DNA of 64,000 nucleotides, taken from assembly GCF_900188415.1 (NCBI RefSeq), contig NZ_FZNV01000003.1, positions 248,001 through 312,000 on the forward strand. The letters run 5' to 3'. Source of the stretch: Maribacter sedimenticola (lineage in GTDB: Bacteria; Bacteroidota; Bacteroidia; Flavobacteriales; Flavobacteriaceae). Under the pieces are notes generated by a model. That model saw only the letters and a program-made list of their open reading frames with translations, was not told where the DNA came from and did no database searches. Each line of letters opens with the position of its first letter. The stretch's first letter is position 1. This document shows positions 16,232-32,743 of this stretch, piece after piece. The position numbers and the translations under genes were made by a program.

Positions 16232-16247
16232 GAACTAATTCCGTGCC
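16232..16247 (-). promoter_or_regulatory. Sigma-54-like promoter before permease 5
   Basis: The minus strand reads TGGCACG-GAAT-TAGTT. TGGCACG is a perfect sigma-54 -24 element, and the G of the -12 element is in the correct register (GG-N10-G). The rest of the -12 element is TAGTT instead of TTGCW. The same variant occurs at 18873-18888 and 29856-29871. The predicted leader is roughly 55 bases. Confidence 0.72.
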
Positions 16248-16300
16248 ATTATGTTAAGCATCTAATTACTAGATACTTAAATTACAAGTAAATTTTCATA

Positions 16301-16339
16301 TGTAAAATATTTTGACAAAAGATGTACAATATATTTACA
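16301..16339. promoter_or_regulatory. Enhancer-type site: two tandem TGT-N11-ACA palindromes
   Basis: Site 1 is TGTAAAATATTTTGACA (16301-16317) and site 2 is TGTACAATATATTTACA (16323-16339). Their starts are 22 bp apart, or two helical turns, and the whole 39 bp has dyad symmetry about 16320. It lies 54 bp upstream of the TGGCACG element. This is the layout of a binding site for an NtrC-type activator. I infer that the activator is the regulator encoded at 30033-31397. Confidence 0.68.
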
Positions 16340-16392
16340 AGGACTACTTAAAAATTAGAATGTTACAAGTAGTTTATTACAACTAATCTTAA

Positions 16393-18825
16393 CTACTCTG
16401 ACCGTAAACTTTTCACGGGATTAACGATTGCCGCTTTTATACTTTGGTAGCTTACCGTTAGTATTGCTACGATAATGGCCAATACAGCTGCCAAAAAGAA
16501 TACCCCAACACCAATCTCTATTCTATAAGAGAAATCTTCTAGCCATTTATTCATGACATACCATCCTACGGGCAAAGAAATCAATATGGCTACGCCTACC
16601 AATTTTAGGAAATCTACCGTAAGCCGATATGAAATCTGACTTACAGTAGCCCCCAATACTTTTCTAACGCCAATTTCTTTAGTGCGCTTCTCAGCATTAA
16701 AGGCAGCTAATCCAAATAATCCCAAACAAGCAATGAAAATGGATAGAATAGTAAAAATGAAAAATATCTGACTCAGTTTTTGTTCTGCTTCATAAGTGGT
16801 ATTAAAGGCCTCATCCATAAACCGGTAATCGAAAGGTTGACCTGGCGCCATAGTGTTCCACGTATTTTCAATGGCTTTAATATTATCTGCATAATTTCCT
16901 CCACTCATTCTTACCGCCATGTTTTGGGCATTTGAATTTAAATGCATACCCAAGGCACTAATATTTGTACGCAGCGTTCTATAATGAAAGTCTTTAACCA
17001 CTCCAATTATGGTATAGTAGGTAGGGTTTTCTTGTTCTATTTCTTCTGATATACGTAAGCCTAATGCTTCTTCTGCCGTTACATTTAAAATAGGCAGCGT
17101 AGCTTCATTGATTATTATGGCTGTAGAATCCGATGCATACGTCGGGTTAAAATCACGACCGGCAACCAATTCCATTTCCATAGTTTTTAGATAATCTGTA
17201 TCTACGTCCCACTCTTGCATTTGTATGGCACTTTCTTGATCTCTAGAACCTTCTTCAAAGAATGAAGAGTCTGATCGCCAAGATGGTGTTGGGTAATAAT
17301 TACTTAACGTAGCACTCTTAACAAAACCCATATTCACAATCTGTTCTTTAAAAGCCTTGGTTTTGGACCCTAATGCACCCAATTCATTTATTAACAATAC
17401 TTGGTCCTTGGAGAAGCCCAGATCTTTATTCTGAATGTAATTCAATTGCTGAAATACCACTAAGGTGCTGATAATAAGAAATACCGAAATTGAAAATTGA
17501 AAAATAACTAGGGCATTACGTACCCTACCATTCCCCACACTTTCAGTACTATTACCTTTTAACGTTTTAACGGGTGTAAACCTCGACATAAAAAATGCAG
17601 GATAGCTACCTGACAATATTCCAAGTAACATAGTTGCCCCTATTAATGCCAGCCAGAATAAGGGCTGAGTAAACGGAATTTCAATTGATTTACCCGTAAA
17701 GCCATTGAAAAAAGGCAATGCTACCAGTGTAATCAATAGTGCCGCAAGTAAGGACACAAATGCAATTAATCCTGATTCGGTTAAAAATTGAAAGACCAAA
17801 TTCAATTTATTTGAGCCCAAGGTTTTACGCACACCTACTTCTTTGGCTCTCTTTAACGAATGAGCCGTAGACAAATTCATAAAATTAACACTTGCCAAAA
17901 TAATCAAGAACAGTCCAATAAAAGAAAGAATGTAGATATTCTGAATACTGCTCGTTGCACTCATTTCCGAGCTTTTATCTGAATGCAAATGAATATCGGT
18001 CAAGGGCATGGTGTGGTACCGAATGTAATTACCGGATGCCGCAAACGACTCTGCCGTCATACCCGGAAAATATTTTTGTGCCCATGGCAACATGTAGCGC
18101 TCTAACATACCTTGTAAGGGCTCTTGAAAATCCTCAGCCTTGGCCCCGGGAATTAACTTTATAAATGTAAAATAATTATTACCGCCCCAATTATCTTCTC
18201 TTGATGCCACGTTGCCCGCCATTGCCAAAAACACACTGTAATCATTGAAATAAGAATTTTTGGGCATATCTTCTATGATACCTGTTACCGTATATGTATC
18301 GGTATTATCCAACAATAAATTTTGACCTATAACATCTGTAGAACCAAAATGTTTTTCTGCTGCAGTTTTAGTAAGCACCAAAGAGTTGGTACCCGTTAAT
18401 GCCGTTTTGGCATCACCTGCAAGTAAGTCTATCCCAAAGAATTCAAAAACAGTGGAATCGGCATAGGTAATATAGTTTTCTTTGGCACTTTTATTTCCTC
18501 CAACTTTCTTAACATAAGCACTACCTATAGTTCTAAAACGCACTGAAGCTTCTACCTGCGGATAGTCTCTTTTTAAAGTTTCCGCCATTGGTGCGGCAGC
18601 TTCCCCTGCCTTAATTTCCGCTCCACCAAATTTGATATCAGAATCTATACGATAAATCCTATCTGCATCGGCAAACATTTTATCGTAGCTAAGCTCATCG
18701 TAGATATATAGCGATATAATCAATGCCCCAGCCATACCTATGGCTAGACCAAATGTATTTAGAAAAGTGAAAAAGGCTTGCTTTTTTAGACTCCTCCAGG
18801 CTATTTTAATATAATTCCTAAACAT
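16393..18825 (-). CDS. Double-FtsX ABC permease (4th in transcription order), own promoter
   Basis: 810 residues, start MFRNYIKIAWRSLKKQ, end NPVKSLRSE (Ser in place of the usual Thr). Coupling segments read KEVGVRKTLGSNKLNL and KEIGVRKVLGATVSQI; the following LTVDFLKLV is shared with permease 1, where the others read LSKDF, LTKDF or LSQDF. It has its own sigma-54-like promoter and upstream site in the 161-bp gap on its 5' side, and another such promoter follows it. It can therefore be expressed as a single-gene unit. Confidence 0.92.
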   Translation of the reverse strand: MFRNYIKIAWRSLKKQAFFTFLNTFGLAIGMAGALIISLYIYDELSYDKMFADADRIYRIDSDIKFGGAEIKAGEAAAPMAETLKRDYPQVEASVRFRTIGSAYVKKVGGNKSAKENYITYADSTVFEFFGIDLLAGDAKTALTGTNSLVLTKTAAEKHFGSTDVIGQNLLLDNTDTYTVTGIIEDMPKNSYFNDYSVFLAMAGNVASREDNWGGNNYFTFIKLIPGAKAEDFQEPLQGMLERYMLPWAQKYFPGMTAESFAASGNYIRYHTMPLTDIHLHSDKSSEMSATSSIQNIYILSFIGLFLIILASVNFMNLSTAHSLKRAKEVGVRKTLGSNKLNLVFQFLTESGLIAFVSLLAALLITLVALPFFNGFTGKSIEIPFTQPLFWLALIGATMLLGILSGSYPAFFMSRFTPVKTLKGNSTESVGNGRVRNALVIFQFSISVFLIISTLVVFQQLNYIQNKDLGFSKDQVLLINELGALGSKTKAFKEQIVNMGFVKSATLSNYYPTPSWRSDSSFFEEGSRDQESAIQMQEWDVDTDYLKTMEMELVAGRDFNPTYASDSTAIIINEATLPILNVTAEEALGLRISEEIEQENPTYYTIIGVVKDFHYRTLRTNISALGMHLNSNAQNMAVRMSGGNYADNIKAIENTWNTMAPGQPFDYRFMDEAFNTTYEAEQKLSQIFFIFTILSIFIACLGLFGLAAFNAEKRTKEIGVRKVLGATVSQISYRLTVDFLKLVGVAILISLPVGWYVMNKWLEDFSYRIEIGVGVFFLAAVLAIIVAILTVSYQSIKAAIVNPVKSLRSE

Positions 18826-18872
18826 AGTTCCCGTATTTTGATTGATGATGAATAACTTTATGATGTATAAAG

Positions 18873-18888
18873 AACTAAATTCGTGCCA
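18873..18888 (-). promoter_or_regulatory. Sigma-54-like promoter before permease 4
   Basis: The minus strand reads TGGCACG-AATT-TAGTT, the same -24 element and the same TAGTW -12 variant as at the other two sites. Flanking bases are also shared with the permease 5 promoter (GTTC follows in the transcribed direction here and TTCC there). The predicted leader is about 38 bases. Confidence 0.72.
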
Positions 18889-18941
18889 CTAACGTAATGA
18901 ATTGATTTTCAGAATTATACATTTTCATACATTTAGAATAG

Positions 18942-18980
18942 TGTAAAATTTTTAGACAAAAATTGTCCAATCTTTTTACA
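18942..18980. promoter_or_regulatory. Enhancer-type site: two tandem TGT-N11-ACA palindromes
   Basis: Site 1 is TGTAAAATTTTTAGACA (18942-18958) and site 2 is TGTCCAATCTTTTTACA (18964-18980), again with a 22-bp period. The distance to the TGGCACG element is 54 bp, exactly as at the permease 5 promoter. It ends 6 bp before the permease 3 stop codon, so nearly all of the intergenic DNA is used for regulation. Confidence 0.68.
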
Positions 18981-18986
18981 GGTCGT

Positions 18987-21386
18987 TTATTCCGTTCGTA
19001 AACTTTTAATAGGATTTGCCCTTGCCGATCGTATGGCATGATAGCCAACCGTTATAATGGCGACCACCACCGCAACAAGTCCGGCCAGAACAAATACCCA
19101 CCAATTTATATTTATTTTATAGGCATATATTTTAAGCCACTCGTTCATGGCAAACCATGCCAATGGTGTTGCAACGAAGATGGACACCAACACCAATTTT
19201 ATAAAATCCTGGGACAATAAGGCCACTATACTTGAGACTTCTGCCCCCAATACTTTTCGTATCCCTATTTCCTTTGTACGTAGCATAGCACTATATGTTG
19301 CCAAACCGAACAATCCTAAACAAGCGATCAATATGGCCAAGAAAGAGAAAAGGGTAAACAGTTTTCTAAACCTAAAATCCGCTTGGTATTGCTCGTTGAA
19401 ACTATTATCTAAAAAACGATAAAGAAATGGCCTATGCGGAGCCAATTCTGCCCATTTTTGTTCTACCTGTGCAATAGTACGCTGTATATCTCCAGTCTTG
19501 ATCTTTAGAGATAGGTATTTCCCAAACCTGGAATAGCGCATGGACAATGGGGCCACTTCTTGGTGAAGCGACATATAATTAAAATCCTTAACGACCCCTA
19601 CCACGGTGCCCTCCCTGCCCCATTGCTCAAATTTTTTACCTATAATATCTGCCGGATCGGCATATCCAAATGATTTGACCGCAGCTTCGTTAACGATCAT
19701 TGCACTCACGGAATCCGTTACAAATTCCCTAGAATATGGCCTACCCGCAACCATTTCAATTTCATAATGAGGAATAAAATCAAAGTCTATTTCATACAAA
19801 AAAGGTTCATAATGTTCCATGCCACCATCTACCGTTTCTATTTCCGTGCCCGCTGCAGGGAAATGCGTTCCGGGCACAGTACGCGAACCTGCAACAGAAC
19901 TAACCTCCGGTAATCGTTTAAGCTCGGTTTTGACCATTTCTATATTATCCAGAATTTGACCGTCCCAATTAAAATCTATTATCATTTGCTGGTCCATATC
20001 AAACCCTAAATTTTTGTTCAACATAAAACCCAATTGATAATATACAATTACAGTACTGGCTATTAATGCAATGGAAAGGGTAAACTGAAAAATGACCAAA
20101 CCCTTTCTAAGATTGACCCCTTGTGGCGAAGAACTCACCAAACCCTTTAAAACCCTTGACGGTCTAAAACTTGACAATATAAATGCAGGGTAACTCCCCG
20201 CAAAAAGTCCCGTAAGGACTGCCACACCAATATATAGGGGCAACATGTAAGAACCAAAGACCTCATAAATGCTAAATTGTTTTCCGGTAATGGCAGAGAG
20301 CCAGGGAATACAAACCACAACTACGATCAAACCTATTGCCGCAGCTACCAAGACCATAATCAACGACTCGCTCAAAAACTGATACACAAGACCTTTTTTG
20401 TGTGCACCGATCACTTTTCTTACTCCTACTTCCTTGGCCCGCTCCATAGATCTTGCCGTTGCCAAGTTCATAAAATTTATACTGGCGATAACAAGTATAA
20501 ATAGTCCTATAATGGCAAAAATGTAAATATTGGAAAGGCTACCTACCGTACCGGGTTGCCGTACCGCATCAGAATTTAAATACGCATCCTTTAAAGGCTC
20601 AAAGGAGACATTATAGTAATATTCCTTTTCTTCCTCTGTTTGATGTTTATCCAAGAATGCAGGCATTTTTGACTGAAAAGCAGCTAAATCAAAATTATTA
20701 TCCACCAAAAAATAGGTGTAGAAATCAACATAACCCCAAGCATCGAATATCCCCGGTCTTGTCTGGTAGAACGAACTCATTGAAAGCAATACATCAAAAT
20801 TGAAATGTGAGTTTTGGGGCACATCCTTCATTACCCCTGTAACCGTATACTTTCCGTCGTTAGCACGACCACCAACTCCTTCAATAACCTTGCCCATAGG
20901 ATCTTCATTTCCAAAATACTTTTTTGCGGTACTCTCCGTCAAGACTACGGTATAAGGTGCCTCCAATGCAGTTTTGGGATTTCCGGAAAGTAAGGGCCAA
21001 GTAAAGACATCAAAAACAGTAGCGTCTACATAAAAACAATTACTTTCCTGAAAAGCATTGGCATTATACTTCAATAATACATCTGATCTACCGGAAAACT
21101 GCACTTTTTCAATAACTTCAGAAAAATCTTCCTTCAAGGCCGATCCTATAGGTGCATTGCCCCATATCCATTTGTCCTCTGCCTCGGCAGAGCCCATATG
21201 ATGCACCACCCTATAAATTTGCTCTCCTTTTTCATGATAGTTGTCATATGAAAATTCATTGTTTATGAACATCAAAATCATAAGAAAACACGCCATACCT
21301 ATAGCTAATCCTCCCATATTAACAACGGAATATCCCTTATTTTTCAATAAGTTTCTCCAAGCGATCTTTAAATAGTTCTTGAACAT
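18987..21386 (-). CDS. Double-FtsX ABC permease (3rd in transcription order)
   Basis: 799 residues when started at the ATG ending at 21386, giving MFKNYLKIAWRNLLKNKGYS as in the other copies. A longer reading from 21443 adds 19 residues that none of the paralogues have and overlaps the shared leader AAAAAACGAAAAGC, so I reject it. Coupling segments read KEVGVRKVIGAHKKGL and KEIGIRKVLGAEVSSI. It ends NPIKSLRTE. It is the last gene before the first internal sigma-54-like promoter. Confidence 0.92.
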   Translation of the reverse strand: MFKNYLKIAWRNLLKNKGYSVVNMGGLAIGMACFLMILMFINNEFSYDNYHEKGEQIYRVVHHMGSAEAEDKWIWGNAPIGSALKEDFSEVIEKVQFSGRSDVLLKYNANAFQESNCFYVDATVFDVFTWPLLSGNPKTALEAPYTVVLTESTAKKYFGNEDPMGKVIEGVGGRANDGKYTVTGVMKDVPQNSHFNFDVLLSMSSFYQTRPGIFDAWGYVDFYTYFLVDNNFDLAAFQSKMPAFLDKHQTEEEKEYYYNVSFEPLKDAYLNSDAVRQPGTVGSLSNIYIFAIIGLFILVIASINFMNLATARSMERAKEVGVRKVIGAHKKGLVYQFLSESLIMVLVAAAIGLIVVVVCIPWLSAITGKQFSIYEVFGSYMLPLYIGVAVLTGLFAGSYPAFILSSFRPSRVLKGLVSSSPQGVNLRKGLVIFQFTLSIALIASTVIVYYQLGFMLNKNLGFDMDQQMIIDFNWDGQILDNIEMVKTELKRLPEVSSVAGSRTVPGTHFPAAGTEIETVDGGMEHYEPFLYEIDFDFIPHYEIEMVAGRPYSREFVTDSVSAMIVNEAAVKSFGYADPADIIGKKFEQWGREGTVVGVVKDFNYMSLHQEVAPLSMRYSRFGKYLSLKIKTGDIQRTIAQVEQKWAELAPHRPFLYRFLDNSFNEQYQADFRFRKLFTLFSFLAILIACLGLFGLATYSAMLRTKEIGIRKVLGAEVSSIVALLSQDFIKLVLVSIFVATPLAWFAMNEWLKIYAYKININWWVFVLAGLVAVVVAIITVGYHAIRSARANPIKSLRTE

Positions 21387-21471
21387 GCTTTTCGTTTTTT
21401 GATTTAATTTTATTAAGTAGCTTAAATAAATTTGCATCTTCAACTATGCGAAGAGATAATTATAAAATATA

Positions 21472-23820
21472 CTACTCCGTTCTTAGACTTTTTACCGGGT
21501 TTACCCTTGCTGCATTAAAAGCTTGAAAACTAATGGTCAACAACGCTATTACAATGGCTACCGCCCCGGCAATTATGAACGCCCAAGCATTAATTGAAGT
21601 TCTGTATGCAAAACCCTCTAACCAATTCTGCATTAACAACCAGGCTATTGGCGTTGCAATTATTATTGCCATACCTACCAATTTCATAAAATCTTTAGAT
21701 AATAAGCCCACAATACCTGTAATACTTGAACCTAGCACTTTTCGTACGCCAATTTCCTTTCTACGTTGGTCCGCAGTAAAAGCGGACAAGCCAAAGAGTC
21801 CCAAACAAGATATTAGGATAGCGAGCAGTGCAAAAACTTGAGAAAGGTTCCCAATTAACTGCTCACTCTTAAATTTGGCATCGTAAGTGTCATCTACAAA
21901 TTCATATTCAAAAGGAAACGCAGGGTTAAACTTGTGCAACGTTGCTTCCATTGCATTTAGTGCCAATACTGTTTCCATACCCGTTTTTGTTTTTACATAC
22001 ATAAAACGTGCTTGACTAGGGTCGTTAAAAAAAATGACGGGATCACTTGAACCATACATATCTCCGTACACATAATCTTTTACTACGCCTATCACAGGAT
22101 AATCTTCTTCTATAGTTTTACCTACGGCACTGCCGCTTCCCATAAGTTTAGCAAAAGATTCACTTACAATAATATTGACACTGTCCTGTGCAGGATTGTT
22201 ACTAAATCCGCGTCCATCTATAATCTTCATTCCTGTAGTATTGAAGAAATCTGCTGTAATATCTCTAACCGATACCAGAACATCTTCAGTATCTACTCCG
22301 CCTTGCCAGGATAACCCCGATGTATTATTTCCACCGGATAAAATATCCGTATTAATGAACCCGATGCTTTCTATCATCCCCGAAGCTTTAATATCTTCTT
22401 CAATAGGTTTGAAGTTTTTGATCATATCACCGGTAACGGGAATTTTAACCAGATTCTCTTTATTGTAGCCTAAATCCCGTCCTTTTACATGCTGTACTTG
22501 TTGATAGACTATAATGGTACTAATGATAAATACTATGGATACAACAAACTGTGTAGCTACCAGCCCTTTACGTATCATTGAGGCACTTCCTTTTGTCCTT
22601 CTTGCTCCTTTTAAAACGTCTACAGGTTTAAAAGAGGACAAATAAAATGCGGGATACCAGCCTGCAACCAAACCACAAATCAATGTAATACTTAACAGCG
22701 TTAACAAATGCGTTGGGTTAAACAAGTTTAGCGCTAATTGTTTGCCGATCATCGTATTAAATTGCGGCACCAATAACTTTAACAAAAGCACACTTAACAC
22801 GGCAGATAACCCTGCAGTGATTATCGCTTCTGCCATAAATTGAGAGATCAAACCTTTTCTCCCAGAGCCTAAAACTTTACGCACCCCTACTTCATTCGCC
22901 CTTTTCTCACTACGAGCCGTAGCCAAGTTCATAAAATTGATACAAGCAATTAATAAAATAATGAGTGCAATAAGACTAAACAGTCGTACATACGTTATTT
23001 GTCCTCCTACATTTTTACCGCCTTCAAATGCCGAACGCAAATGCCAATCTTTCATGGAGAATAAAAAAGCGATGGTTTCATCGTCCTCGGTTTTCAATGG
23101 CAGTATTGCCTTTACTTTATTATTGACCACATCAACATTTGCTTCGGGAGAGAGTTCCACAAACGTGTCAGAAAAATTTGCTCCATATTCTTTTACCCAT
23201 TCATTATCCTTTGCAAATCGTTCAAAAGGAGCTACCCAATCAAAACTATAGGTTACGTTGTGCGGCAAATCTTCGTAAACTCCTGTAACCGTAAAATTAG
23301 TTTCGTTATTTATCTTAACCACCTTGTGCATTGCCGAGGTATCCTCACCAAATAATTGAGTGGCCGTTTCTTGCGAAATAACAATAGCATCTACATTTTT
23401 GAAAGCAGTTTCCAAATTACCTTCTACAAATGATAGACTGAACATACTTAAAAAATCAGGATCTGCGTAACGTCCATTTTTATTTATAGCTGTTTCACCT
23501 ACCTGAAATAAAAAATCTTCTCCCTTTGTTCTTGCTGACCCGACAATTCCTGGCACTTCTTCTTTTAAGACCGCTGCTAAAGGACCAGGAGTAGCTTGAA
23601 AAAAGGTACGCCACTCACCTTCATATTGCTGATTGGTGGGTACATAATATACCACGTTTTGCTTATCAAAATTAGCATCGTAACCCACCTCATCTTCAAC
23701 CCAAAGCAAAATCATGGCGGCACAGGTGATACCTATTGCCAAACCAAAAATATTCAGCATACTATAGCCTTTGTTCTTCCAAAGGTTTCTCCAAGCGATC
23801 TTTAAATAGTTCTTGAACAT
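21472..23820 (-). CDS. Double-FtsX ABC permease (2nd in transcription order)
   Basis: 782 residues from the ATG ending at 23820, the shortest of the eight. An upstream in-frame start at 24015 would add 65 residues that read through the end of the preceding permease gene and have no counterpart in the paralogues. Coupling segments read NEVGVRKVLGSGRKGL and KEIGVRKVLGSSITGI, and the end is NPVKSLRTE. The shortened parts lie in the periplasmic domains, which suggests a different cargo or partner surface. Confidence 0.92.
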   Translation of the reverse strand: MFKNYLKIAWRNLWKNKGYSMLNIFGLAIGITCAAMILLWVEDEVGYDANFDKQNVVYYVPTNQQYEGEWRTFFQATPGPLAAVLKEEVPGIVGSARTKGEDFLFQVGETAINKNGRYADPDFLSMFSLSFVEGNLETAFKNVDAIVISQETATQLFGEDTSAMHKVVKINNETNFTVTGVYEDLPHNVTYSFDWVAPFERFAKDNEWVKEYGANFSDTFVELSPEANVDVVNNKVKAILPLKTEDDETIAFLFSMKDWHLRSAFEGGKNVGGQITYVRLFSLIALIILLIACINFMNLATARSEKRANEVGVRKVLGSGRKGLISQFMAEAIITAGLSAVLSVLLLKLLVPQFNTMIGKQLALNLFNPTHLLTLLSITLICGLVAGWYPAFYLSSFKPVDVLKGARRTKGSASMIRKGLVATQFVVSIVFIISTIIVYQQVQHVKGRDLGYNKENLVKIPVTGDMIKNFKPIEEDIKASGMIESIGFINTDILSGGNNTSGLSWQGGVDTEDVLVSVRDITADFFNTTGMKIIDGRGFSNNPAQDSVNIIVSESFAKLMGSGSAVGKTIEEDYPVIGVVKDYVYGDMYGSSDPVIFFNDPSQARFMYVKTKTGMETVLALNAMEATLHKFNPAFPFEYEFVDDTYDAKFKSEQLIGNLSQVFALLAILISCLGLFGLSAFTADQRRKEIGVRKVLGSSITGIVGLLSKDFMKLVGMAIIIATPIAWLLMQNWLEGFAYRTSINAWAFIIAGAVAIVIALLTISFQAFNAARVNPVKSLRTE

Positions 23821-23843
23821 GATTTTCGTTTTTTGATGATGAA

Positions 23844-26261
23844 TTATTCTTTCCTTAAACTTTTTAAAGGCTGTATCAGTGCAGCGCCTATAGATTGATA
23901 GCTTATGGTCAAAATAGCTATGGTCAATGCAATGAATCCTGCGATAAAGAATATGCCCCAACCAATAGTAATGTGGTAGGCAAAATCCTCTAACCAACGG
24001 CTCATTAAATACCACCCTACAGGTACGGCAATGGCGATAGAAATTATAATCAGTTTCATAAAATCTACGGTAAGCAATTTATAGATGCTTTTAAACGGAG
24101 CGCCTAAAACCAGGCGAATGCTGATTTCTTTTTTACGTTGTTCTACCATAAAGGCAGACAGTGCAAACAAACCTAAACAAGCAACTAAAATGGCGAACAG
24201 GGCAAAGCTGTTGAATATTTTACCCATGCGTTCCACATCATCATGCATATGGCTGAACTCTTGATCTAAAAAACTATAATTAATGGACTGACTGGGCACA
24301 TTTTTATCCCAAACCGAAGTAATTGAAGCCAGGGCTTCATTCACATTTCCTTTTTCCAACTTTAGCGATATAGACCCTAAATCTTTACCGATTACGAGCG
24401 ATAGCGAAGAAATATCTTCTTTTAAGGACTTAAAGTGAAAATCATCTATTACACCTATGACCTTAAACTGTTGACCGTTATTGTTTATTTCTTTCCCAAT
24501 AGCATTTTCCAAGCCTAATTCACGTTGCATATTGGCATTTATAATAATTGAGTTTAAAGCATCAGACGCAAATTGCTTAGAAAAATCTCTTCCTGTTTTA
24601 ACCGAAATACCCAGCGTTTTAATGTAATCATAATCTACTCTCCAGATTTGGGCAGGTATACCTCTACCTTCATTTCCTTCATCTTCCCTTCTAAATGTAT
24701 TACCGTTTCTACTACCACCATCTACCGGCAAATAATTAGAAATGGTAGCCGATTTCACTTGTGGCAATTGTAGAAGTTGTTCTTTAAAATTTTCAGCACT
24801 TTCCCCTAAGATTCCGGTACCTTCTAGAACAACAACCTGTTCCTTATCATACCCCAATTCTTTTTGAAGAATAAAGTCCATTTGTTTGTAAATAATCAAG
24901 GTGGCAATGATCAGCACTACCGATGTGGTAAATTGAAAAACAACGAGTCCGCTCCTTAATTTGCCACTCTTACTGCCAATACTAAGACTTCCCTTTAAAA
25001 CATTTACCGGTTTAAATGCCGATAAATAAAATGCCGGATATAAGCCCGCCAAAGCTCCTACCAAAAGAGCAGCAACTACTATTACCGGAACAAACCACCA
25101 AGCAGACCAAGGCATTTCTATCGCTTTAGATGCCATGTTGTTAAATGTTGGCAGTAATGCCCAAGCCAATAGCACGCCTAATAGAAAAGACACAAAACTA
25201 AACACCATAGATTCGGTCAAAAATTGCGTTATCAAATTGCTTTTATAAGCACCAATGGTTTTTCTTAAGCCAACTTCTTTAGCCCTATTGGCAGACTTTG
25301 CGGTAGAAAGATTAATAAAGTTGATTACCGCCAATAATAACACAAAACCGGCTACAGCGGCAAAAAGCCAAACAAAACGTATATCGCCATGCTTTAGACC
25401 ATCTGCCATTTTAATATCCGAATACAAATGAATATCGGTTATAGGCTGTAGTTTGTACTTCATGGTTCTAAGCACCTCAATAAAGTCTGGAGCACGCCCT
25501 CGTTCGCGCTGTGCGGGAATAATATAATCTTCAACAATAGAAACCATTTTTTGCTCCAATTCCCGCACGTTCGTATGGTCATCTACCAACACATAGGTAA
25601 AGTAATTCTGGTTGGTCCAGTTTGCATTGGTGTCTTCAATGGGTAACAGAAAGTCATAGGCCAGATGTGAGTTTTTTGGAGCATCTTTCATGATCCCGGT
25701 TACCGTATACGGAGTACTCGCATCATTATCTAAAATGATGGTTTCGCCCAAAATTTTATCCCCATTAAAATACTTTGCCGCTTTGGATTCCGATATGACA
25801 ATACTTTTTGGATTTGCCAATGCGGTTTTAGGATTACCTTGTTGCAACTTCACTTCCAAAAGTTCAAATGCTTCTTGATCCGCAAGCATAAAGCCGGTTT
25901 CCAAGTTATTTTGAGCTGCCCCAGCTAAGCGAATACCGCGTTTACCTGCCCCAAAAATTTCAATTGTATTTATTTTCCCTGCCTTTACTATTTCTGGAAA
26001 ATCATTTTGCAAGGCTTCTGCAAAGGGTAATTGAAAGTGAGTGCTTTTCATGACTTCACCTTTGTACATGCCTTCTAACACTACTCTATATAACTGATCC
26101 TTTTTGGTATAGTGCTGATCATAACCTACTTCATTGTGAATGAATAAGGCTATTAAAAGACAAGCCGCTATACCAACAGCAAAGCCACCAATTTTAATGG
26201 TGGCAAATAGCGTATCCTTCTTAATACTTCTCCAAGCTATTTTAAGATGGTTTCTGAACAT
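23844..26261 (-). CDS. Double-FtsX ABC permease (1st in transcription order), most divergent
   Basis: 805 residues, start MFRNHLKIAWRSIKKD. It departs most from the array consensus at the conserved ends: the second coupling segment reads KEISIRLVLGAPFKSI (the others have KEIG[IV]RK), and the tail is QPLKSLRKE instead of NPVKSLRTE. The first coupling segment is normal (KEVGLRKTIGAYKSNL). It is separated from the proximal ATPase by 154 bp containing a dyad element (26356-26388). It lies 23 bp before permease 2. Confidence 0.92.
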   Translation of the reverse strand: MFRNHLKIAWRSIKKDTLFATIKIGGFAVGIAACLLIALFIHNEVGYDQHYTKKDQLYRVVLEGMYKGEVMKSTHFQLPFAEALQNDFPEIVKAGKINTIEIFGAGKRGIRLAGAAQNNLETGFMLADQEAFELLEVKLQQGNPKTALANPKSIVISESKAAKYFNGDKILGETIILDNDASTPYTVTGIMKDAPKNSHLAYDFLLPIEDTNANWTNQNYFTYVLVDDHTNVRELEQKMVSIVEDYIIPAQRERGRAPDFIEVLRTMKYKLQPITDIHLYSDIKMADGLKHGDIRFVWLFAAVAGFVLLLAVINFINLSTAKSANRAKEVGLRKTIGAYKSNLITQFLTESMVFSFVSFLLGVLLAWALLPTFNNMASKAIEMPWSAWWFVPVIVVAALLVGALAGLYPAFYLSAFKPVNVLKGSLSIGSKSGKLRSGLVVFQFTTSVVLIIATLIIYKQMDFILQKELGYDKEQVVVLEGTGILGESAENFKEQLLQLPQVKSATISNYLPVDGGSRNGNTFRREDEGNEGRGIPAQIWRVDYDYIKTLGISVKTGRDFSKQFASDALNSIIINANMQRELGLENAIGKEINNNGQQFKVIGVIDDFHFKSLKEDISSLSLVIGKDLGSISLKLEKGNVNEALASITSVWDKNVPSQSINYSFLDQEFSHMHDDVERMGKIFNSFALFAILVACLGLFALSAFMVEQRKKEISIRLVLGAPFKSIYKLLTVDFMKLIIISIAIAVPVGWYLMSRWLEDFAYHITIGWGIFFIAGFIALTIAILTISYQSIGAALIQPLKSLRKE

Positions 26262-26355
26262 GGCTCTCGTTTTTATTGATCGATGATTTAATTATTATCC
26301 GTGATTAAGGGATAAGTTTGGTTGGTTGGTTTGGTTTGGTTGATTACTTATTGCC

Positions 26356-26388
26356 TGTCCCCACCTGAACATTGTTCAATGACGGACA
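26356..26388. promoter_or_regulatory. 33-bp nested dyad between the ATPase and permease 1
   Basis: Arms TGTCC (26356-26360) and GGACA (26384-26388) share their centre, base 26372, with the inner palindrome TGAACA-T-TGTTCA (26366-26378). The one-base inner spacer makes an RNA hairpin unlikely at the centre, so an operator-like protein site is more probable. It can also be read as two TGT-N10-ACA units, similar but not identical to the 39-bp enhancer sites. No promoter element is obvious next to it. Confidence 0.4.
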
Positions 26389-26415
26389 AAATGATTGATT
26401 GATAAATAAACTCCC

Positions 26416-27111
26416 TTACATCATGGCACCTATAGCCCTATTCTGACTTTCAGTTACGATTTGACCGTCGAATAGATTTACAACTCTATGCGCGTAATGT
26501 GAGTCTCTGTCCGAGTGTGTTACCATTACTATTGTGGTTCCTTCTTGGTTCAATTCTGTCAACAAGTTCATTACTTCAATTCCGTTTTTAGAATCCAAGT
26601 TCCCCGTTGGCTCATCGGCAAGTATTAATTTCGGATTGGTAACCACCGCTCTTGATATGGCAACACGTTGCTGCTGACCACCTGATAATTGCTGCGGAAA
26701 ATGTTTTTCCCTATGCGCTATTTTCATACGCTCCAACACCTTCATAACTTTTTCCTTACGTTCTGCCTTTCCCATTTTTAAATAAATCAATGGTAGCTCT
26801 ACGTTTTCAAAAACGGTAAGCTCATCTATTAAATTAAAGCTTTGAAAGACAAAACCTAAATTACCCTTACGCAGTTGGGTACGTTGACTTTCCTTTAAAC
26901 CACCAACTTCATTGCCGGCAAAATTGTAGCTACCCTCCGTTGGGTTATCCAGCATACCAATAATATTCAACAAAGTAGACTTGCCACAACCGGACGGACC
27001 CATAATTGCAACGAACTCCCCGTCCTCTACTTTTAGGTTGACATTGTTCAACGCCAAGGTTTCTACTTCTTCTGTTCTAAAACTCTTTTTTAGGTTTGTA
27101 ATGGTTATCAT
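26416..27111 (-). CDS. ABC transporter ATPase (MacB/LolD type), proximal copy
   Basis: 231 residues with all motifs intact: Walker A GPSGCGKST, VFQSFNLIDELT around the Q-loop, signature LSGGQQQRVAISRAV, Walker B LILADEPTGNLDS and H-loop VTHSD. It is the third gene of the locus, between the adaptor and the permease array. This position makes it the probable energy-coupling subunit for most or all of the eight permeases. The family energises tripartite efflux (MacAB-TolC) or lipoprotein extraction (LolCDE) through mechanical movement of the periplasmic domains. Confidence 0.95.
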   Translation of the reverse strand: MITITNLKKSFRTEEVETLALNNVNLKVEDGEFVAIMGPSGCGKSTLLNIIGMLDNPTEGSYNFAGNEVGGLKESQRTQLRKGNLGFVFQSFNLIDELTVFENVELPLIYLKMGKAERKEKVMKVLERMKIAHREKHFPQQLSGGQQQRVAISRAVVTNPKLILADEPTGNLDSKNGIEVMNLLTELNQEGTTIVMVTHSDRDSHYAHRVVNLFDGQIVTESQNRAIGAMM

Positions 27112-27166
27112 GTTTCCTTCTTTTTGATTGTTATAATGACATCGAAAATTCTCTGATGTGACAGTT

Positions 27167-28417
27167 TTATTTTAAGACGATTCTTTCCGCTTCCCCGAAA
27201 TTATCGTAGTTACTAGTTATTACTTTTTCCCCTGGTTCCAAGCCTTCCAATACTTCATAGTATCTAGAATTCTGTTTCCCTATTCTAATATTTCTTTTAA
27301 TGGCTTCTCCCCCATCTGGATTTACTACAAATATCCATTGCCCGCCGGTACTTTGAAAAAAGCTTCCTTTTGGTAATAACAGCGCATCGTTAGATTCACC
27401 CAATTGTAATTTAATATTGTAACTCTGTCCTGAACGTATGGTCTCTGGCTTATTATCCGTAAATACCAAATCTACCTTGAACCTACCATTTCTAACCTCT
27501 GGATATACTTTACGTAAACGCAACGGAAATTCTGCGCCATTACGCTCTAAAACCGCTGTAAGGTCTCTTTTTACACGATCAATATAATGCTCGTCTATAT
27601 CTGCCTCTATTTTATAATCTGTTAATACGTTGATTTGCCCTATGCGTTGCCCTTGAGCAATACTCTGCCCAATTTCGGCATCTAAAAACCCTAATTGACC
27701 ATCTGCAGGAGCCCGTACATTTAAATGATCCAGCCTTTGGTACACCATACCCAATGTTTTTTGCATACGTGCCAAATCGGTATCCAGACCTCTTAATGAA
27801 GTTTCCCTTAATTCATCATCTTGCTCGGTCTGTAGCTTTACAATTTCATACTGCTTTTGAGACAGTTCATAGTTTTCTTTTGATAGTTGATAGGCTTCCC
27901 TAGAAATCAATTCCTCATCGAACAACGCTTTGTTCTGTTCGTAATTTCTCTTTAAACGCTGCAGATCTGTACTTGCCGTTGCCAATGACTTTCTACCTTC
28001 TACCTGTCTAGAATCGAAATTCAATTTTGTGGAACGCAAATCGTTTTGCTTTAATGCCAGGTTACTTTCACTCGCCAAAATCTGTTCGTACAGATTCATG
28101 TTTTCCAGCTTTAAGATAATATCGCCTTTTTTGACCATAGCACCTTCTTCTATTAACTTTTCGCTTACACGACCACCTTCATAGGCATCCATATAAATAG
28201 TTGCAATAGGCGCAACGTTACCGTTAATGGTAATATAATCATCGAACTTTCCTGCAGACACCTCAGCCACCGATAGTTTATCTTTCTCGGTTCTAAATGT
28301 GGATACCGAACTGGCAAATAACAGTTGGTAACCTACAAATAGTAGCAATACACCCAGGGCAATGTAACCGTAGTGTTTTGGCTTCAATCCTTTTTTCTTT
28401 TCTAATTTTATATCCAT
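27167..28417 (-). CDS. Periplasmic adaptor (HlyD/MacA-family membrane fusion protein)
   Basis: 416 residues. A single N-terminal membrane anchor (about 18-36, GYIALGVLLLFVGYQLLF) is followed by a first lipoyl half (about 75-105, IEEGAMVKKGDIILKLEN). A long helical hairpin rich in Glu, Lys and Gln spans about 110-230. The second lipoyl half (LNVRAPADGQLG) and beta-barrel domains close the chain. It bridges the inner-membrane permeases and the TolC-like channel. It lies 60 bp after tolC and 55 bp before the ATPase gene, in the order outer membrane channel, adaptor, ATPase, permeases. Confidence 0.93.
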   Translation of the reverse strand: MDIKLEKKKGLKPKHYGYIALGVLLLFVGYQLLFASSVSTFRTEKDKLSVAEVSAGKFDDYITINGNVAPIATIYMDAYEGGRVSEKLIEEGAMVKKGDIILKLENMNLYEQILASESNLALKQNDLRSTKLNFDSRQVEGRKSLATASTDLQRLKRNYEQNKALFDEELISREAYQLSKENYELSQKQYEIVKLQTEQDDELRETSLRGLDTDLARMQKTLGMVYQRLDHLNVRAPADGQLGFLDAEIGQSIAQGQRIGQINVLTDYKIEADIDEHYIDRVKRDLTAVLERNGAEFPLRLRKVYPEVRNGRFKVDLVFTDNKPETIRSGQSYNIKLQLGESNDALLLPKGSFFQSTGGQWIFVVNPDGGEAIKRNIRIGKQNSRYYEVLEGLEPGEKVITSNYDNFGEAERIVLK

Positions 28418-28477
28418 GGTAATCGTTTGTTCGTTCTTCGTTATTCGTTTGTTCGTTTGTTCGTTCCAAATAAAAAT

Positions 28478-29830
28478 TTAGTTGGCTTCGATATTAAATA
28501 CTGGTAGTCCTCGGTAAAAGTCCAATGTGCTTTTATTGATCTCTGAACGTAGTTTCACCTGTAAATTCTCATTTTGTGCACTCGCATATAAATTTTTGGC
28601 GGTAAAAAGCTCTAGAGCATTTATCAGTCCTTTTTCATATCTTTTTTGAGCAATGGTAAAGGCTAAATTCTGCGCCTCCATTTTTTGGTTGCTCTGCACC
28701 AATTCTACTACTAATGAATTATAATCTTGCACTAATTGCTGAATGGTTTGAAACAGCTCTTGCTCTTGTGTCTTTAAATTATTCTCTGCACGAAGCTTTT
28801 CTATTTTAGATTGCTTTACCTGTGATCGTGCAGACCAACCGTTACTAATAGGTACACTTAAATTTATTCCCCAGTACTGAGAAGTGTTATCCCTAAACTG
28901 CTGTCTAAAAGGCAAGGTATTCCCCAATGTGTCTCTTGTAGTTTCAAAATACCCAGTACCAATACCTGCAAAGAAAGAAAGTGACGGGTACAATCTTCCC
29001 CTGGAGACTGCAACTTGCTTTTTTGCTGCCTTGGCTCTTAACTCCTGTGCTTTTATCAATGGTAAAAACTCGCGAGCTTCGTTATAAACAGAATCAGATG
29101 TTATTTCGTTAACAGCTGCATCCGCCACTACTTGCGGCAGTTCTTTTGTAATTTCAATTTCAGAGGTGTTCTCCAAGTTCATTTCTTGAATCAAGGTTAA
29201 TTTTGCCGTCGCCAATTGATTGGCACTTTGTGTTACGTTCAATTTATCGGTCAATAGTAACGACTCTGCCTCATAAAGATCGGCACCGGCTTTTAAGCCT
29301 AATTCTACCTGCTTTTCTACCAAACTGTAATTGGTTTGCGATACCGTTAATTGTTCTTTTGAGATTTCTACCAATCCTTCAAAAAACTGAATATCATAAA
29401 AGGCTTGCATTACCCTAAATGCCAATAAATATTTTTGTTGCAGCACATCTTCTTTGGTTGCCTTGAACAATAATTTAGATGCTTTAATGGCATTTATTTT
29501 TTGAAATCCCCGAAACAAATCAATGGAGGACTCCAACGAATAATTATTAGAGTAGAAATCCTGATTTACAAATGTTCCCGTATTGGGATCTTCTGCCCTA
29601 CCATAATTAACAAGATAACTAGATGATGCATTTACCGAAGGCAACAAGTTACGAACCGATTGTCTATAGGTTTCTTTATTAGATTGATTGGTATACTTAA
29701 AATCATTCAACTGTAAATTATGCGCTAAGGCATATGAAACACATTCATCTAATGTCCAACTTTCTTGGGCAAATACAGATGCCCAAATGGTCAGCAGCAA
29801 AAGTGTCGTTATTTTAAATTTTTTAATCAT
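28478..29830 (-). CDS. TolC-family outer membrane efflux protein
   Basis: 450 residues with a signal peptide ending ASVFAQ, followed by the paired outer-membrane-efflux repeats of the TolC family (WTLDECVSYALAHNLQL near the N-terminus; long helices rich in Gln, Lys and Leu). It is the first gene of the 24-kb locus, directly behind the divergent regulatory region. A sigma-54-like promoter is placed 26-41 bp upstream of its start. It would form the outer-membrane exit duct shared by the permeases. Confidence 0.93.
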   Translation of the reverse strand: MIKKFKITTLLLLTIWASVFAQESWTLDECVSYALAHNLQLNDFKYTNQSNKETYRQSVRNLLPSVNASSSYLVNYGRAEDPNTGTFVNQDFYSNNYSLESSIDLFRGFQKINAIKASKLLFKATKEDVLQQKYLLAFRVMQAFYDIQFFEGLVEISKEQLTVSQTNYSLVEKQVELGLKAGADLYEAESLLLTDKLNVTQSANQLATAKLTLIQEMNLENTSEIEITKELPQVVADAAVNEITSDSVYNEAREFLPLIKAQELRAKAAKKQVAVSRGRLYPSLSFFAGIGTGYFETTRDTLGNTLPFRQQFRDNTSQYWGINLSVPISNGWSARSQVKQSKIEKLRAENNLKTQEQELFQTIQQLVQDYNSLVVELVQSNQKMEAQNLAFTIAQKRYEKGLINALELFTAKNLYASAQNENLQVKLRSEINKSTLDFYRGLPVFNIEAN

Positions 29831-29855
29831 TTTTCTATTGGTATGCCATTCTCTA

Positions 29856-29871
29856 TACTATATGCGTGCCA
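29856..29871 (-). promoter_or_regulatory. Sigma-54-like promoter of the export locus (tolC)
   Basis: The minus strand reads TGGCACG-CATA-TAGTA. The -24 element is perfect; the -12 element again has TAGT with the conserved G in register. The inferred leader to the tolC ATG is only about 15 bases. No flavobacterial TAnnTTTG box was seen in this gap on the minus strand. Confidence 0.72.
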
Positions 29872-29934
29872 TAATTTTAAATTATTGATTTACAGTTATT
29901 TACATCATAATTAAATTTAATATTAATATATCAG

Positions 29935-29973
29935 TGTAAAAATGTTGTACAGATATTGTCAAATTTTTTTACA
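29935..29973. promoter_or_regulatory. Enhancer-type site: two tandem TGT-N11-ACA palindromes
   Basis: Site 1 is TGTAAAAATGTTGTACA (29935-29951) and site 2 is TGTCAAATTTTTTTACA (29957-29973), with a 22-bp period as at the other two copies. It lies 64 bp upstream of the TGGCACG element, which is 10 bp, or about one helical turn, further than at the other promoters. It also lies 60 bp upstream of the regulator gene itself, so autoregulation is possible. Confidence 0.68.
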
Positions 29974-30032: not shown

Positions 30033-31397
30033 ATGATCGATGCAAAGATTCTTGTAATAGATGATACCAAAAGCGTGCTCAGCGCTCTTGAGATTTTGCT
30101 ACAGTTTGAATATAAAAGTGTACAAACCATTTCTAACCCAAATTTACTTTCATCTTTTCCCAACCTTAAGGAAATAGATATCATATTATTGGATATGAAT
30201 TTTTCTGCCGGGGTAAATACAGGAAACGAGGGTCTATACTGGTTGCGCGAAATAAAAAAGAAGGCTCCCCATATCTCGGTGATTATGATGACCGCCTATG
30301 GAGCGGTAGAATTGGCTGTTGAAGCCCTAAAAGAAGGAGCAACGGATTTTGTGCTGAAACCATGGAACAATGAACGCCTGCTTACAACGGTCAAATCTGC
30401 CTATGAACTTAGAAAATCACAGAAAGAAGTACAACACTTAAAACAGAAAGAGAGTAACCTAAAACAGGTTATCAATCAGAATTCCAATTACATCATTGGT
30501 AATTCAAAAGCACTTAATAGTGTAATGAGCCTTGTGCAGAAAGTTGCCAAAACCGACGTCAATATATTAGTAACCGGGGAGAACGGTACTGGAAAAGAAC
30601 TTATCGCCAGAGAACTTCATAAATCATCTGCACGAAACAATGAGGTTTTTATTTCTGTGGATATGGGTTCTATTTCCGAAAATTTATTTGAAAGCGAACT
30701 TTTTGGCCATGTCAAAGGTTCTTTTACCGATGCCAAAGATGACCGTGCAGGTAAGTTTGAAGCTGCCAATGGCGGCACCTTGTTCCTTGATGAAATAGGT
30801 AATCTTTCCCTACAGATGCAGGCCAAATTATTGTCCGTAATTCAGAACCGGGTAGTGGTACGTGTGGGATCAAACAAACCCATACCGGTAGATATTAGAT
30901 TAATTTGTGCAACCAATTGTAACCTTGATCAAATGGTTGCCGATGGCTTATTTCGCGAAGACCTTTTGTATAGGATCAATACCATACAGGTTCAAGTACC
31001 CCCATTAAGGGAACGCGACAATGATGTGCTGGTCCTATCTGATTTCTTTCTTAAAAAATTCGCCCATAAATATGGAAAACCAAGTTTAAAAATCAACCAG
31101 TCTGCCCAAGAAAAATTAAAAAATTATGCCTGGCCGGGGAACGTAAGGGAGTTGTTACATACTATGGAACGTGCGGTTATTTTATCTGAAGGAAATGTCT
31201 TGAAACCGACCGATTTTCTTTTGGAAACAAAGACGAACATGACCGTTGAAAACGGACCTAAAACTCTTGAAGAAATGGAATTGGTCATGATTAACAAAGC
31301 GTTGGACGATCATGACGGAAACTACAGTGCTGCAGCAGATCAACTAGGTATATCTAGACAGACCTTATATAACAAACTTAAAAAATTCAGTAAATAA
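30033..31397 (+). CDS. Sigma-54-dependent response regulator (NtrC family)
   Basis: 454 residues in three domains. The receiver domain (1-120) has acidic pocket D10-D11, phospho-acceptor D54 and the conserved Lys in VLKPW. The AAA+ domain (about 150-385) has Walker A GENGTGKE (182-189) and Walker B GTLFLDE. A Fis-type helix-turn-helix closes the chain ([20 protein letters not shown]). The sigma-54 contact loop, usually GAFTGA, reads GSFTDA (229-234). It is divergent from the export locus and one base overlapping with its kinase. Inferred role: activator of the three sigma-54-like promoters at 16.2, 18.9 and 29.9 kb. Confidence 0.95.
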
Positions 31398-32743
31398 TGG
31401 TCAGCAAAAGTATTTACTATCAACTTGTTCTAAGAATTGTTCTCATAGCAGCCTGCGCTTTGTTGATCGCTTTCCTATCCTTTAAGGAACACTATCTACT
31501 TTCCATACTGTTCGGGTTTGTATTTATTGCACAAGCTTACGGACTTGTACATTATGTAAACCAGACCAACCGAAAAATTGCCTACTTTTTCGATGCGATC
31601 AAGAATGAGGATTTCACCTTACGTTTTCCAGAAAAACTTAGTGTAAAATCAATAGAAGAGCTGAACCATAGTTTGAATATGTTGAACAATATGATTCAAG
31701 AAATTCATCTTAAAAAGCAAGCCCAAGAACAGTATTACGAGGAAATTTTAAAACAGGCCGATATTGGGATATTTACCATAAACGACAAGGGCCACATTTT
31801 ATATGCCAACCCAACCGTACAAAACCTGCTCAACTACAGACCCCTTAACCATGTTAAGCAATTAAAACAAATAGACCCCAACCTATACGGATTGTTTGAA
31901 AACTTGAAACCTTTTGAAAGTACCATCTATGCACTAGGCAATGAACGGGGCAAAAAAGAATTGACCTTAAAATGCACCCCAATATCCATAGAGAACAAAC
32001 AACTATTATTGGTCATTGTCCATGATATTCAAAAAGAACTGGATGATAAGGAAACAGATTCCTGGGTTAAACTTATTAGGGTATTAACACATGAAATCAT
32101 GAATACCATTACCCCTATAACCTCTATTTCAGAATCAATATTAAAATATTTTAAAAAAGGAAATCAACTTTCTACCCCAGAAGAATTTGGGGAACAACAG
32201 ATAAAAAATTCGGCCAAAGGTCTGGAAGTCATTAAGGAACAAGGTAATGACCTTATGAGTTTTGTACAATCCTATAGAACCTTCTTGAGTGTACCGGAAC
32301 CTGATCGGGAACTTATACCCGCCTCTAAACTCCTAGAAAAAGTTAGAATGTTGCTCCAAGAATATACCAATGGCCATGACATTGTTTTAGAAGTATCTGC
32401 GCACCCGGAAAATCTGGAACTTTATATTGACGAAAAACAACTGACCCAAATTCTTTTAAACCTGGGCAAAAACGCACAACAGGCTTTAATAGGTCATGAA
32501 AATGGGGTAATCACGATTAAGGCAGGAGAGGATGTAAACGGCAAACAATTTATTACCGTAACCGATAACGGACCAGGAATTTCTCCTGAAATGTTAGATG
32601 AAGTATTTGTTCCTTTTTTTACCACAAAAAGCAACGGAACCGGAATAGGACTAAGCCTTAGCAAGCAAATCATGCGCATGCACGGTGGCTCTATACGTGT
32701 TGCATCCAATGAAACAACGACATTTACCTTAACGTTTCAATAA
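31397..32743 (+). CDS. Sensor histidine kinase (NtrY-like)
   Basis: 448 residues. Two N-terminal TM helices (about 10-28 and 33-50) with almost no periplasmic loop are followed by a HAMP-like stretch and a PAS domain (about 115-215). The H-box is VLTHEIMNTITPI with His232. The ATP-binding domain has an N-box around NLGKNAQQAL, TDNGPGIS and GTGIGLSLSKQI. The lack of a large extracellular domain suggests that it senses the membrane itself or a cytoplasmic PAS ligand. The start codon overlaps the regulator's stop by one base (TAATG), so the two are translationally coupled. Confidence 0.94.
   Translation: MVSKSIYYQLVLRIVLIAACALLIAFLSFKEHYLLSILFGFVFIAQAYGLVHYVNQTNRKIAYFFDAIKNEDFTLRFPEKLSVKSIEELNHSLNMLNNMIQEIHLKKQAQEQYYEEILKQADIGIFTINDKGHILYANPTVQNLLNYRPLNHVKQLKQIDPNLYGLFENLKPFESTIYALGNERGKKELTLKCTPISIENKQLLLVIVHDIQKELDDKETDSWVKLIRVLTHEIMNTITPITSISESILKYFKKGNQLSTPEEFGEQQIKNSAKGLEVIKEQGNDLMSFVQSYRTFLSVPEPDRELIPASKLLEKVRMLLQEYTNGHDIVLEVSAHPENLELYIDEKQLTQILLNLGKNAQQALIGHENGVITIKAGEDVNGKQFITVTDNGPGISPEMLDEVFVPFFTTKSNGTGIGLSLSKQIMRMHGGSIRVASNETTTFTLTFQ

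Follow-up and report, generated by a model that had tools for sequence, protein, structure and literature searches.

Three putative sigma-54 promoters probably place a MacB-type export locus of Maribacter sedimenticola under its adjacent two-component system

How tandem membrane export genes might be placed under a single switch is the question raised by one locus of Maribacter sedimenticola. In the window (the whole stretch of DNA analysed, 64,000 nucleotides), three units with TolC, HlyD, two ABC ATPases and eight MacB-type permeases follow three similar upstream sites, and a two-component system is encoded divergently (Table 1). A preliminary description of this DNA had proposed sigma-54 promoters with enhancers bound by the adjacent NtrC-type regulator, a reading supported by rpoN, protein domains, clustering of matches and covariation. 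From these comparisons, we put the probability that all three sites act as enhancer-dependent sigma-54 promoters and form one regulon, activated by that regulator, at roughly 0.86; one neighbouring sensor-regulator pair probably switches on the whole export cluster. The type of mechanism is textbook, and the sequence anatomy, conservation, clustering and covariation described below were established directly.

In the window, exactly three matches to TGGCACG-N4-TAGTW were found, all on the minus strand, and 100 shuffled sequences had none. The first bases given earlier hold for P1 and P2, while that of P3 is 16248 rather than 16247. The 39-bp sites (UAS; TGT-N11-ACA-N5-TGT-N11-ACA) lie where the preliminary description had placed them, and none of the six elements (three UAS, three promoters) falls inside any gene, as it had also stated. 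Its order of one longer and two shorter spacings was retained (63, 53 and 52 nt between UAS and TGG for copies 1, 2 and 3), although the third is one less than it gave. A composite matrix, built from 132 distinct sequences of other genomes and run over both strands of the window with gaps of 45-74, recovered all three composites at 85.5-105.5 bits; no other composite scored above 20 bits. Scans for sigma-70-type promoters (52 versus 54.3 in shuffles) and terminators (14 versus 12.0 in shuffles) gave no clear excess.

Table 1. Features of the export locus and the adjacent two-component system, in window positions.
Feature	Position	Strand	Details
Histidine kinase	31397..32743	+	PAS, HATPase, two hydrophobic helices joined by a very short loop
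NtrC-type response regulator	30033..31397	+	receiver, AAA+ with GSFTDA loop, Fis HTH with RQTLYNK helix
UAS1	29935..29973	-	two TGT-N11-ACA dyads, 22-bp period; 52.3 bits; exact pattern and matrix
IHF-consensus-like core 1	29878..29890	-	AATCAATAATTTA; 9/9 core positions
Promoter P1, sigma-54-type	29856..29871	-	TGGCACGCATATAGTA; gap 63 from UAS1; pattern search
TolC-type outer membrane protein	28478..29830	-	first gene of unit 1
HlyD/MacA-type adaptor	27167..28417	-	unit 1
ABC ATPase	26416..27111	-	unit 1
MacB-type duplicated permease	23844..26261	-	unit 1
MacB-type permease	21472..24015	-	unit 1; listed GTG start overlaps upstream gene
MacB-type permease	18987..21443	-	last of unit 1
UAS2	18942..18980	-	exact pattern and matrix
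IHF-consensus-like core 2	18895..18907	-	AATCAATTCATTA; 9/9 core positions
Promoter P2	18873..18888	-	TGGCACGAATTTAGTT; gap 53; pattern search
MacB-type permease	16393..18825	-	unit 2 (P2)
UAS3	16301..16339	-	exact pattern and matrix
IHF-consensus-like core 3	16255..16267	-	AATTAGATGCTTA; 8/9 core positions
Promoter P3	16233..16248	-	TGGCACGGAATTAGTT; gap 52; pattern search
MacB-type permease	13766..16165	-	first of unit 3 (P3)
MacB-type permease	11333..13723	-	unit 3
MacB-type permease	8890..11298	-	unit 3
MacB-type permease	6427..8877	-	unit 3
Second ABC ATPase	5693..6358	-	end of unit 3

Matches to the composite clustered at this export locus in the genus. Of 36 genus genomes, 35 carried the composite, with 89 matches in all versus 1 for the control. 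On its own, the exact 16-mer says little in relatives (in 21 genomes it had 11 matches and its reversed control 8; in the own genome, 3 and 1), and significance rests on the composite; the exact 39-bp site alone gave 26 sites in nine genomes, 25 of them at the locus (control: 5). In stretches read from 30 of the 35 genus genomes with matches, the window's own included, 76 of 80 motif rows had a downstream gene (30 tolC and 46 MacB-type permeases). The gap was 63 before all 30 tolC genes and 52 or 53 before 42 of the 46 permeases (exceptions: two of 63, one of 51 and one of 47); the two main gap lengths lie one helical turn apart, as had been suggested for the window. Among 80 regulator-anchored loci, 62 carried a composite beside the regulator at a gap of 62-64 (one UAS mismatch allowed). 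A follow-up scan covered 17 of the 18 loci lacking a strict match (the contig of the other ends just before the regulator), and since it scored for TTGC and required G14, its promoters lean to that form. Across the order, the strict composite was sparse: 18 of 395 genomes carried it and 377 did not (4 control matches in the set); 10 of the 17 besides the own genome were inspected, and all 10 had matches at such an export locus. These counts overstate the number of events, because the genus sequences are related and some regulator-anchored loci appear to come from the same assemblies as the genus genomes.

The divergent gene had been described as an NtrC-type activator, and its product matched Response_reg (PF00072), Sigma54_activat (PF00158) and the Fis-type HTH (PF02954) above cut-off. 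The loop at the GAFTGA position reads GSFTDA or GAFTDA at 78 of 80 loci (GAFTDS at one, none found at one). In the available text of a Desulfovibrio study, GAFTDA and GSFTGA are listed among activity-keeping loop variants, and GSFTDA is not. The recognition helix RQTLYNK is present at all 67 close loci, whereas all 22 sister loci have R-x-x-LYRR; a UAS pair, with CG letters, was found in 13 of these, and the script detected no UAS-promoter pair in the other 9. In several distant relatives, for which best candidate dyads were listed and pairs named by eye, the same helices go with the same UAS letters (two of these loci gave no clear dyad pair). The UAS letters thus covary with the recognition helix of the activator in close and sister loci and in several distant ones, although part of this could stem from shared ancestry.

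Between UAS and promoter lies a third element that had been overlooked. The preliminary description reported drift between the conserved bases; variable positions are indeed present, but the gap also carries this conserved element, an IHF-consensus-like site by sequence, fixed 19 nt before TGG. The IHF consensus is WATCAR-N4-TTR. At offset -19, the core scored 7.93 of 9 in 96 sequences, 7.87 in 46 and 7.92 in 13 sister sequences, compared with means of 3.78, 3.82 and 3.74 at other offsets; seven rows without G14 were dropped (two wrong-strand palindromes, four sister rows and one MacB promoter). Strict matches to the consensus were found in 33 of 96 gaps in one set (shuffle mean 0.89) and in 15 of 45 in the other (shuffle mean 0.34). 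The own genome encodes two PF00216 proteins, both below the NCBIfam cut-offs for IHF and HU.

Together, these parts suggest a sequence of events in which the kinase at 31397 would phosphorylate the regulator at 30033, which, judging from the covariation of helix and UAS, would bind the paired dyads about 100-110 bp upstream of the predicted starts. An IHF/HU-like protein may then bend the DNA at the conserved element, and such a bend probably takes part in activation; the AAA+ hexamer would, as in its family, remodel sigma-54 polymerase at the -24/-12 box. With gaps of 63 or 52/53, UAS and promoter would lie on the same side of the helix; the difference in gap length is located upstream of the IHF-like site. 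With three copies for three transcription units, the core of TolC, HlyD and ABC ATPase would be switched on together with the additional MacB-type permeases.

The promoters could be of the sigma-54 type and yet have their UAS read by another activator of the genome. Adjacency alone is no proof of target, and the genome holds 13 Sigma54_activat matches, five of them strong; however, among these five only 30033 lies at the locus, the exact UAS pair occurs nowhere else in the genome, and the UAS letters track the 30033-type recognition helix, which makes such an activator improbable. It is scarcely credible that the sites are relic repeats without a regulatory role. The permease genes are tandem paralogues with which promoter copies could have ridden along, but across genera UAS, IHF-like core and -24 box do not change, unlike the positions interleaved with them, the window copies are identical at 25-30 of 52-53 gap positions, and the UAS letters follow the regulator.

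For the third element, a role as a weak extra regulator site, or as sequence that sigma-54 polymerase itself recognises, is unlikely but deserves consideration. The P1 element contains TGTAAAT, resembling a UAS half-site, and the distance between core and TGG is constant, which would also hold for a polymerase contact. In the genus, 43 of 44 matches to element plus promoter, placed by coordinates, lie at these export loci (the pattern is strict, recovering two of three window copies and nothing in 9 of 36 genomes); this near-confinement favours such an alternative, and it weakened the candidate idea of a general sigma-54 promoter feature. Against a non-IHF role, the sister system keeps the element at the same offset although its UAS letters differ, the single off-locus match adjoins a different sigma-54 activator, and the columns fit the IHF consensus, distal TTR included.

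Comparison also supports the earlier sigma-54 promoter reading, except that the -12 box of this family reads T[A/G/C]G instead of canonical TTGC. All three window copies have a TGGCAY -24 box with invariant GG, the -12 G and a GG-to-G distance of 12; in relatives the -24 box is not independent evidence because TGGCA[CT] was imposed in collecting them, and the logos hold TGGCA[CT] and G14 by construction. Among 90 tolC-type sequences, the fraction with A at position 13 is 0.74 and that with T 0.01; C stands at position 15 in 0.18 of these and in 0.02 of 46. One MacB promoter lacks the -12 G, and 13 sister promoters never have G at position 14, with G at position 13 instead in six. A TTGC box was seen at four loci, three of them from the scan scoring for TTGC, and strict TGGCAYRN4TTGCW occurred once in the own genome, below its control of 3. 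Each of 21 genomes had one rpoN match, and the own RpoN has an intact RpoN box (ARRTVAKYRE) and scored 403.4 bits against TIGR02395 (cut-off 277.35). The GxFTDA loop was considered as the cause of the unusual -12 box and dropped, because distant regulators with GAFTDA show TTGC-like boxes. A further TGGCA box of tolC promoters, at offset 23, was likewise rejected as a second promoter, since only 5 of 67 keep the -12 G and a start from the window's copy would be expected to land inside the gene.

The anatomy resembles NtrC/NifA-type promoters in its 17-bp dyads about 100 bp upstream of a -24/-12 promoter, its bend-type site in between and its Fis-type HTH activator. NtrC sites read TGC-N11-GCA, whereas the window sites have TGT/ACA ends, an A/T-rich interior and a T[AGC]G -12 box, and would control MacB-type exporters, not nitrogen genes. 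No published description of the regulon's anatomy was found in the literature searched, where little is printed on sigma-54 regulons of Bacteroidota. A 2025 in-silico study found COG0577 FtsX-like permeases enriched in the sigma-54 regulon of Bacteroidia (PMC12316311); study and window agree in predicting sigma-54 control of the same permease family there. In its available text, no regulator, UAS, IHF site or multi-promoter locus is named for the permeases, and a limited capacity for promoters departing from TTGCT is stated. In Flavobacterium psychrophilum, of the same family as the window's host, -24/-12 promoters (SM4) were mapped by 5'-end RNA-Seq and one was verified by mutation (PMC9723704); the selection printed in its Table 2A comprises chaperone, gliding and envelope genes, and a MacB-type locus is absent from that selection.

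As the kinase is almost without a periplasmic part, the duplicated MacB-type permeases may report to it. An old, phylum-crossing regulon whose exporter senses for itself, with permeases reporting substrate or flux to the kinase, is an idea we hold only speculatively and judge rather doubtful from the sequence. BceAB reports to BceS in this manner; the difference here would be the sigma-54 output. If the exporter does sense for itself, each exporter unit would have been wired in by a single UAS-IHF-promoter cassette gained in the correct helical phase, and regulator lineages keeping their own dyad code would allow parallel systems in one cell without cross-talk. The locus represents a complete, testable putative regulon, with a regulator whose DNA code can be read, the three promoters it would act on, a probable bending site and defined exporters. 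It suggests cassette repetition as a route to one switch over tandem export genes, and the motif could help to locate exporters of this kind, and the signals that induce them, in further species.

The genes form a complete MacAB-TolC-type set (TolC, HlyD/MacA, ABC ATPase and MacB_PCD/FtsX permeases together), with ATPase and permease as separate proteins, in contrast to fused MacB. The real start of the permease at 21472..24015 probably lies further in than the listed GTG. Six of the eight permeases were scanned, and these fell below the curated cut-off of ADOP TIGR03434 (261-307 bits versus 622.3) and that of the darobactin exporter DarB (NF038008; 99-173 versus 700), as did the ATPase for DarD (NF038007; 302 versus 375), while profile matches to these families were near full-length for most of the six.

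The three TGGCACG-N4-TAGTW promoters (P1 to P3) and the three upstream activating sites (UAS, 39-bp paired TGT-N11-ACA dyads) reported in the preliminary description were recovered in the window, and all lie in intergenic DNA, as it had stated. It was off by one in the first base of the third promoter (16248, not 16247) and so in the third spacing; the UAS-to-TGG gaps are 63, 53 and 52 nt. Scored with a matrix built from 132 distinct sequences, all from other genomes, the composites (UAS plus downstream -24/-12 promoter) reached 105.5 (P1), 88.2 (P3) and 85.5 bits (P2), and no further composite in the window exceeded 20 bits. By gene order each promoter heads one downstream unit, whose genes are probably co-transcribed. 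A second ABC ATPase ends the permease array, approximately 20 kb from the first.

Features of the export locus and its surroundings (window positions)
Feature	Position	Description
P1	29856-29871 (-)	promoter
P2	18873-18888 (-)	promoter
P3	16233-16248 (-)	promoter
P1 unit	29830 to 18987	TolC, HlyD, ABC ATPase, three MacB-type permeases
P2 unit	18825-16393	one MacB-type permease
P3 unit	16165 to 5693	four MacB-type permeases, second ATPase
Second ATPase	5693-6358	
Second TGGCA of P1	29848	23 nt past first TGGCA
Regulator	30033-31397 (+)	NtrC-type response regulator
Kinase	31397-32743 (+)	
Second two-component pair and TonB-dependent receptor gene	34457-36214 and 36399-39224	OmpR type, divergent from the receptor gene

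The 16-mer by itself yielded 11 matches versus 8 for a reversed control (21 genomes) and is not convincing alone outside the window. The composite produced 89 matches versus one control match across 36 genus genomes (two of the 89 are wrong-strand readings of the near-palindromic UAS) and was found in 35 of these, the sole exception being a genome that is 68% complete. The exact 39-bp site was matched 26 times in nine genomes, versus five control matches; 25 of these 26 sites fall at the locus, including all three copies in the M. sedimenticola genome, which lie in the window. At order level, the composite was thinner (18/395 genomes, four control matches), and all 10 order genomes fetched, from 17 with a match besides our own, place it at such an export locus.

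As the preliminary description had proposed checking, matches do cluster at export genes: of 80 motif rows in the genus stretches examined, 76 have a gene downstream, and in each case it is tolC or a MacB-type permease (the other four are two wrong-strand palindromes and two rows at fragment ends). The gap was 63 in all 30 rows preceding tolC, and 52 or 53 in 42 of the 46 preceding permeases (63 in two, 51 in one and 47 in one). In 80 regulator-anchored loci (L126-L205), a set partly overlapping the genus genomes (identical sequences were merged for logos), 62 carry the composite beside the regulator with a gap of 62-64, allowing one UAS mismatch. The 18 loci lacking a strict match comprise CGG in place of TGG (L138, L183), a dyad period of 23 bp (L151, L168), a TGGCCT box (L192), interruption at a contig end or by a stretch of Ns (L131, L198, L200, L205), dyad pairs of relaxed geometry (L194-L197, L201, L203), and three with no clear dyad pair on a relaxed scan (L199, L202, L204). 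Of the 96 long-gap promoters, 62 carry a second TGGCA 23 nt past the first, near the predicted transcript start (67 if offsets of 23-25 are counted); none of the 46 short-gap promoters does.

At the C terminus of the regulator, the recognition helix is RQTLYNK in all 67 close loci (L126-L191 and L193), five of which lack a strict composite; in a sister system it is R[ATS][AS]LYRR in 22/22 loci. In distant loci (regulators under about 60% identity), where dyads were chosen by eye from candidate lists, RQT[LI]YNK accompanies A/T dyads (L188, L192), RTSLYRR accompanies TGTTCG or CG-N-ACA letters with N10 rather than N11 (L194, Aminicenantes; L195 and L197, KSB1; L201, Desulfosarcina), and RTT[LM]YRK accompanies TGTTTC-GAAACA-like dyads (L196, L203). 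This covariation is our best evidence that the regulator may bind the UAS, with shared ancestry as a confounder. The GAFTGA loop is replaced by GSFTDA or GAFTDA in 78/80 regulators.

The genome encodes a single rpoN, with the RpoN box ARRTVAKYRE. The -12 box follows the pattern T[AGC]G, and position 13 is preferentially A; a TTGC -12 box was detected in L188 without selection for it, and in L194, L195 and L201 by a scan that scored for TTGC. Counting against a simple reading, sister promoters have G at position 14 in 0/13 and at position 13 in 6/13. Together, locus clustering, rpoN and helix/UAS covariation uphold, at the sequence level, the proposal that these are putative sigma-54 promoters with an enhancer bound by the adjacent NtrC-type regulator.

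Between UAS and promoter lies a third conserved element, omitted from the preliminary description (gap consensus anchored on TGG, TAA-N4-YTGAWWATCAR-N4-TTR). Its core matches the IHF consensus, WATCAR-N4-TTR. At offset -19, mean core scores were 7.93 of 9 in 96 long-gap and 7.87 in 46 short-gap sequences, versus 3.78 and 3.82 at other offsets; strict matches numbered 33/96 and 15/45 (shuffle means 0.89 and 0.34). In the window, the three copies reach 9, 9 and 8. Since the offset from TGG is the same in both classes, the one-turn gap difference falls between the UAS and this element. The element-plus-promoter pattern gave 44 matches in 27 of the 36 genus genomes, with zero control matches. The element could be an extra regulator site or the site of a general bending protein. 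The sister system, found in other genera of the family, bears on this choice: its regulator is ~50% identical and, in four loci read (L210-L213), divergent from HlyD, ABC and MacB-type genes with no TolC in front. A double dyad of 22-bp period and gap 53 was found in 13/22 sister loci, with different UAS letters (CG one base before ACA), and the IHF-like core keeps its offset (mean 7.92 versus 3.74 elsewhere). The element is thus independent of the regulator's code, which favours a bending protein.

The kinase has two hydrophobic helices with about five residues between them, as do, by eye, eight of nine displayed homologues (the ninth has a truncated start); its signal may be sensed inside the membrane or via the transporter.

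In Bacteroidia, COG0577 FtsX-like permeases have been predicted to be under sigma-54 control, which the study terms first evidence (PMC12316311), and a general theme linking sigma-54 and the cell exterior appears in PMC3162934. Sigma-54 -24/-12 promoters were experimentally mapped in another family member (PMC9723704). A search of the open literature turned up no earlier account of this regulator or its UAS, nor of the IHF-like element or the repetition of the cassette. The locus is well conserved and its regulation is of an already known type, this instance being new.

The one off-locus element-plus-promoter match (L253, about 2200-2330, genome G006) precedes a gene that is pirin-like by eye and is divergent from a different sigma-54 activator with a GAFTGA loop; it has the same promoter anatomy and is a candidate target of that activator. 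At another locus (L209, 9984), TGGCATAATTTCTGCC lies upstream of 92-aa and 544-aa genes, GroESL-like by eye, near another NtrC-like gene; PMC9723704 lists groESL among F. psychrophilum sigma-54 targets.
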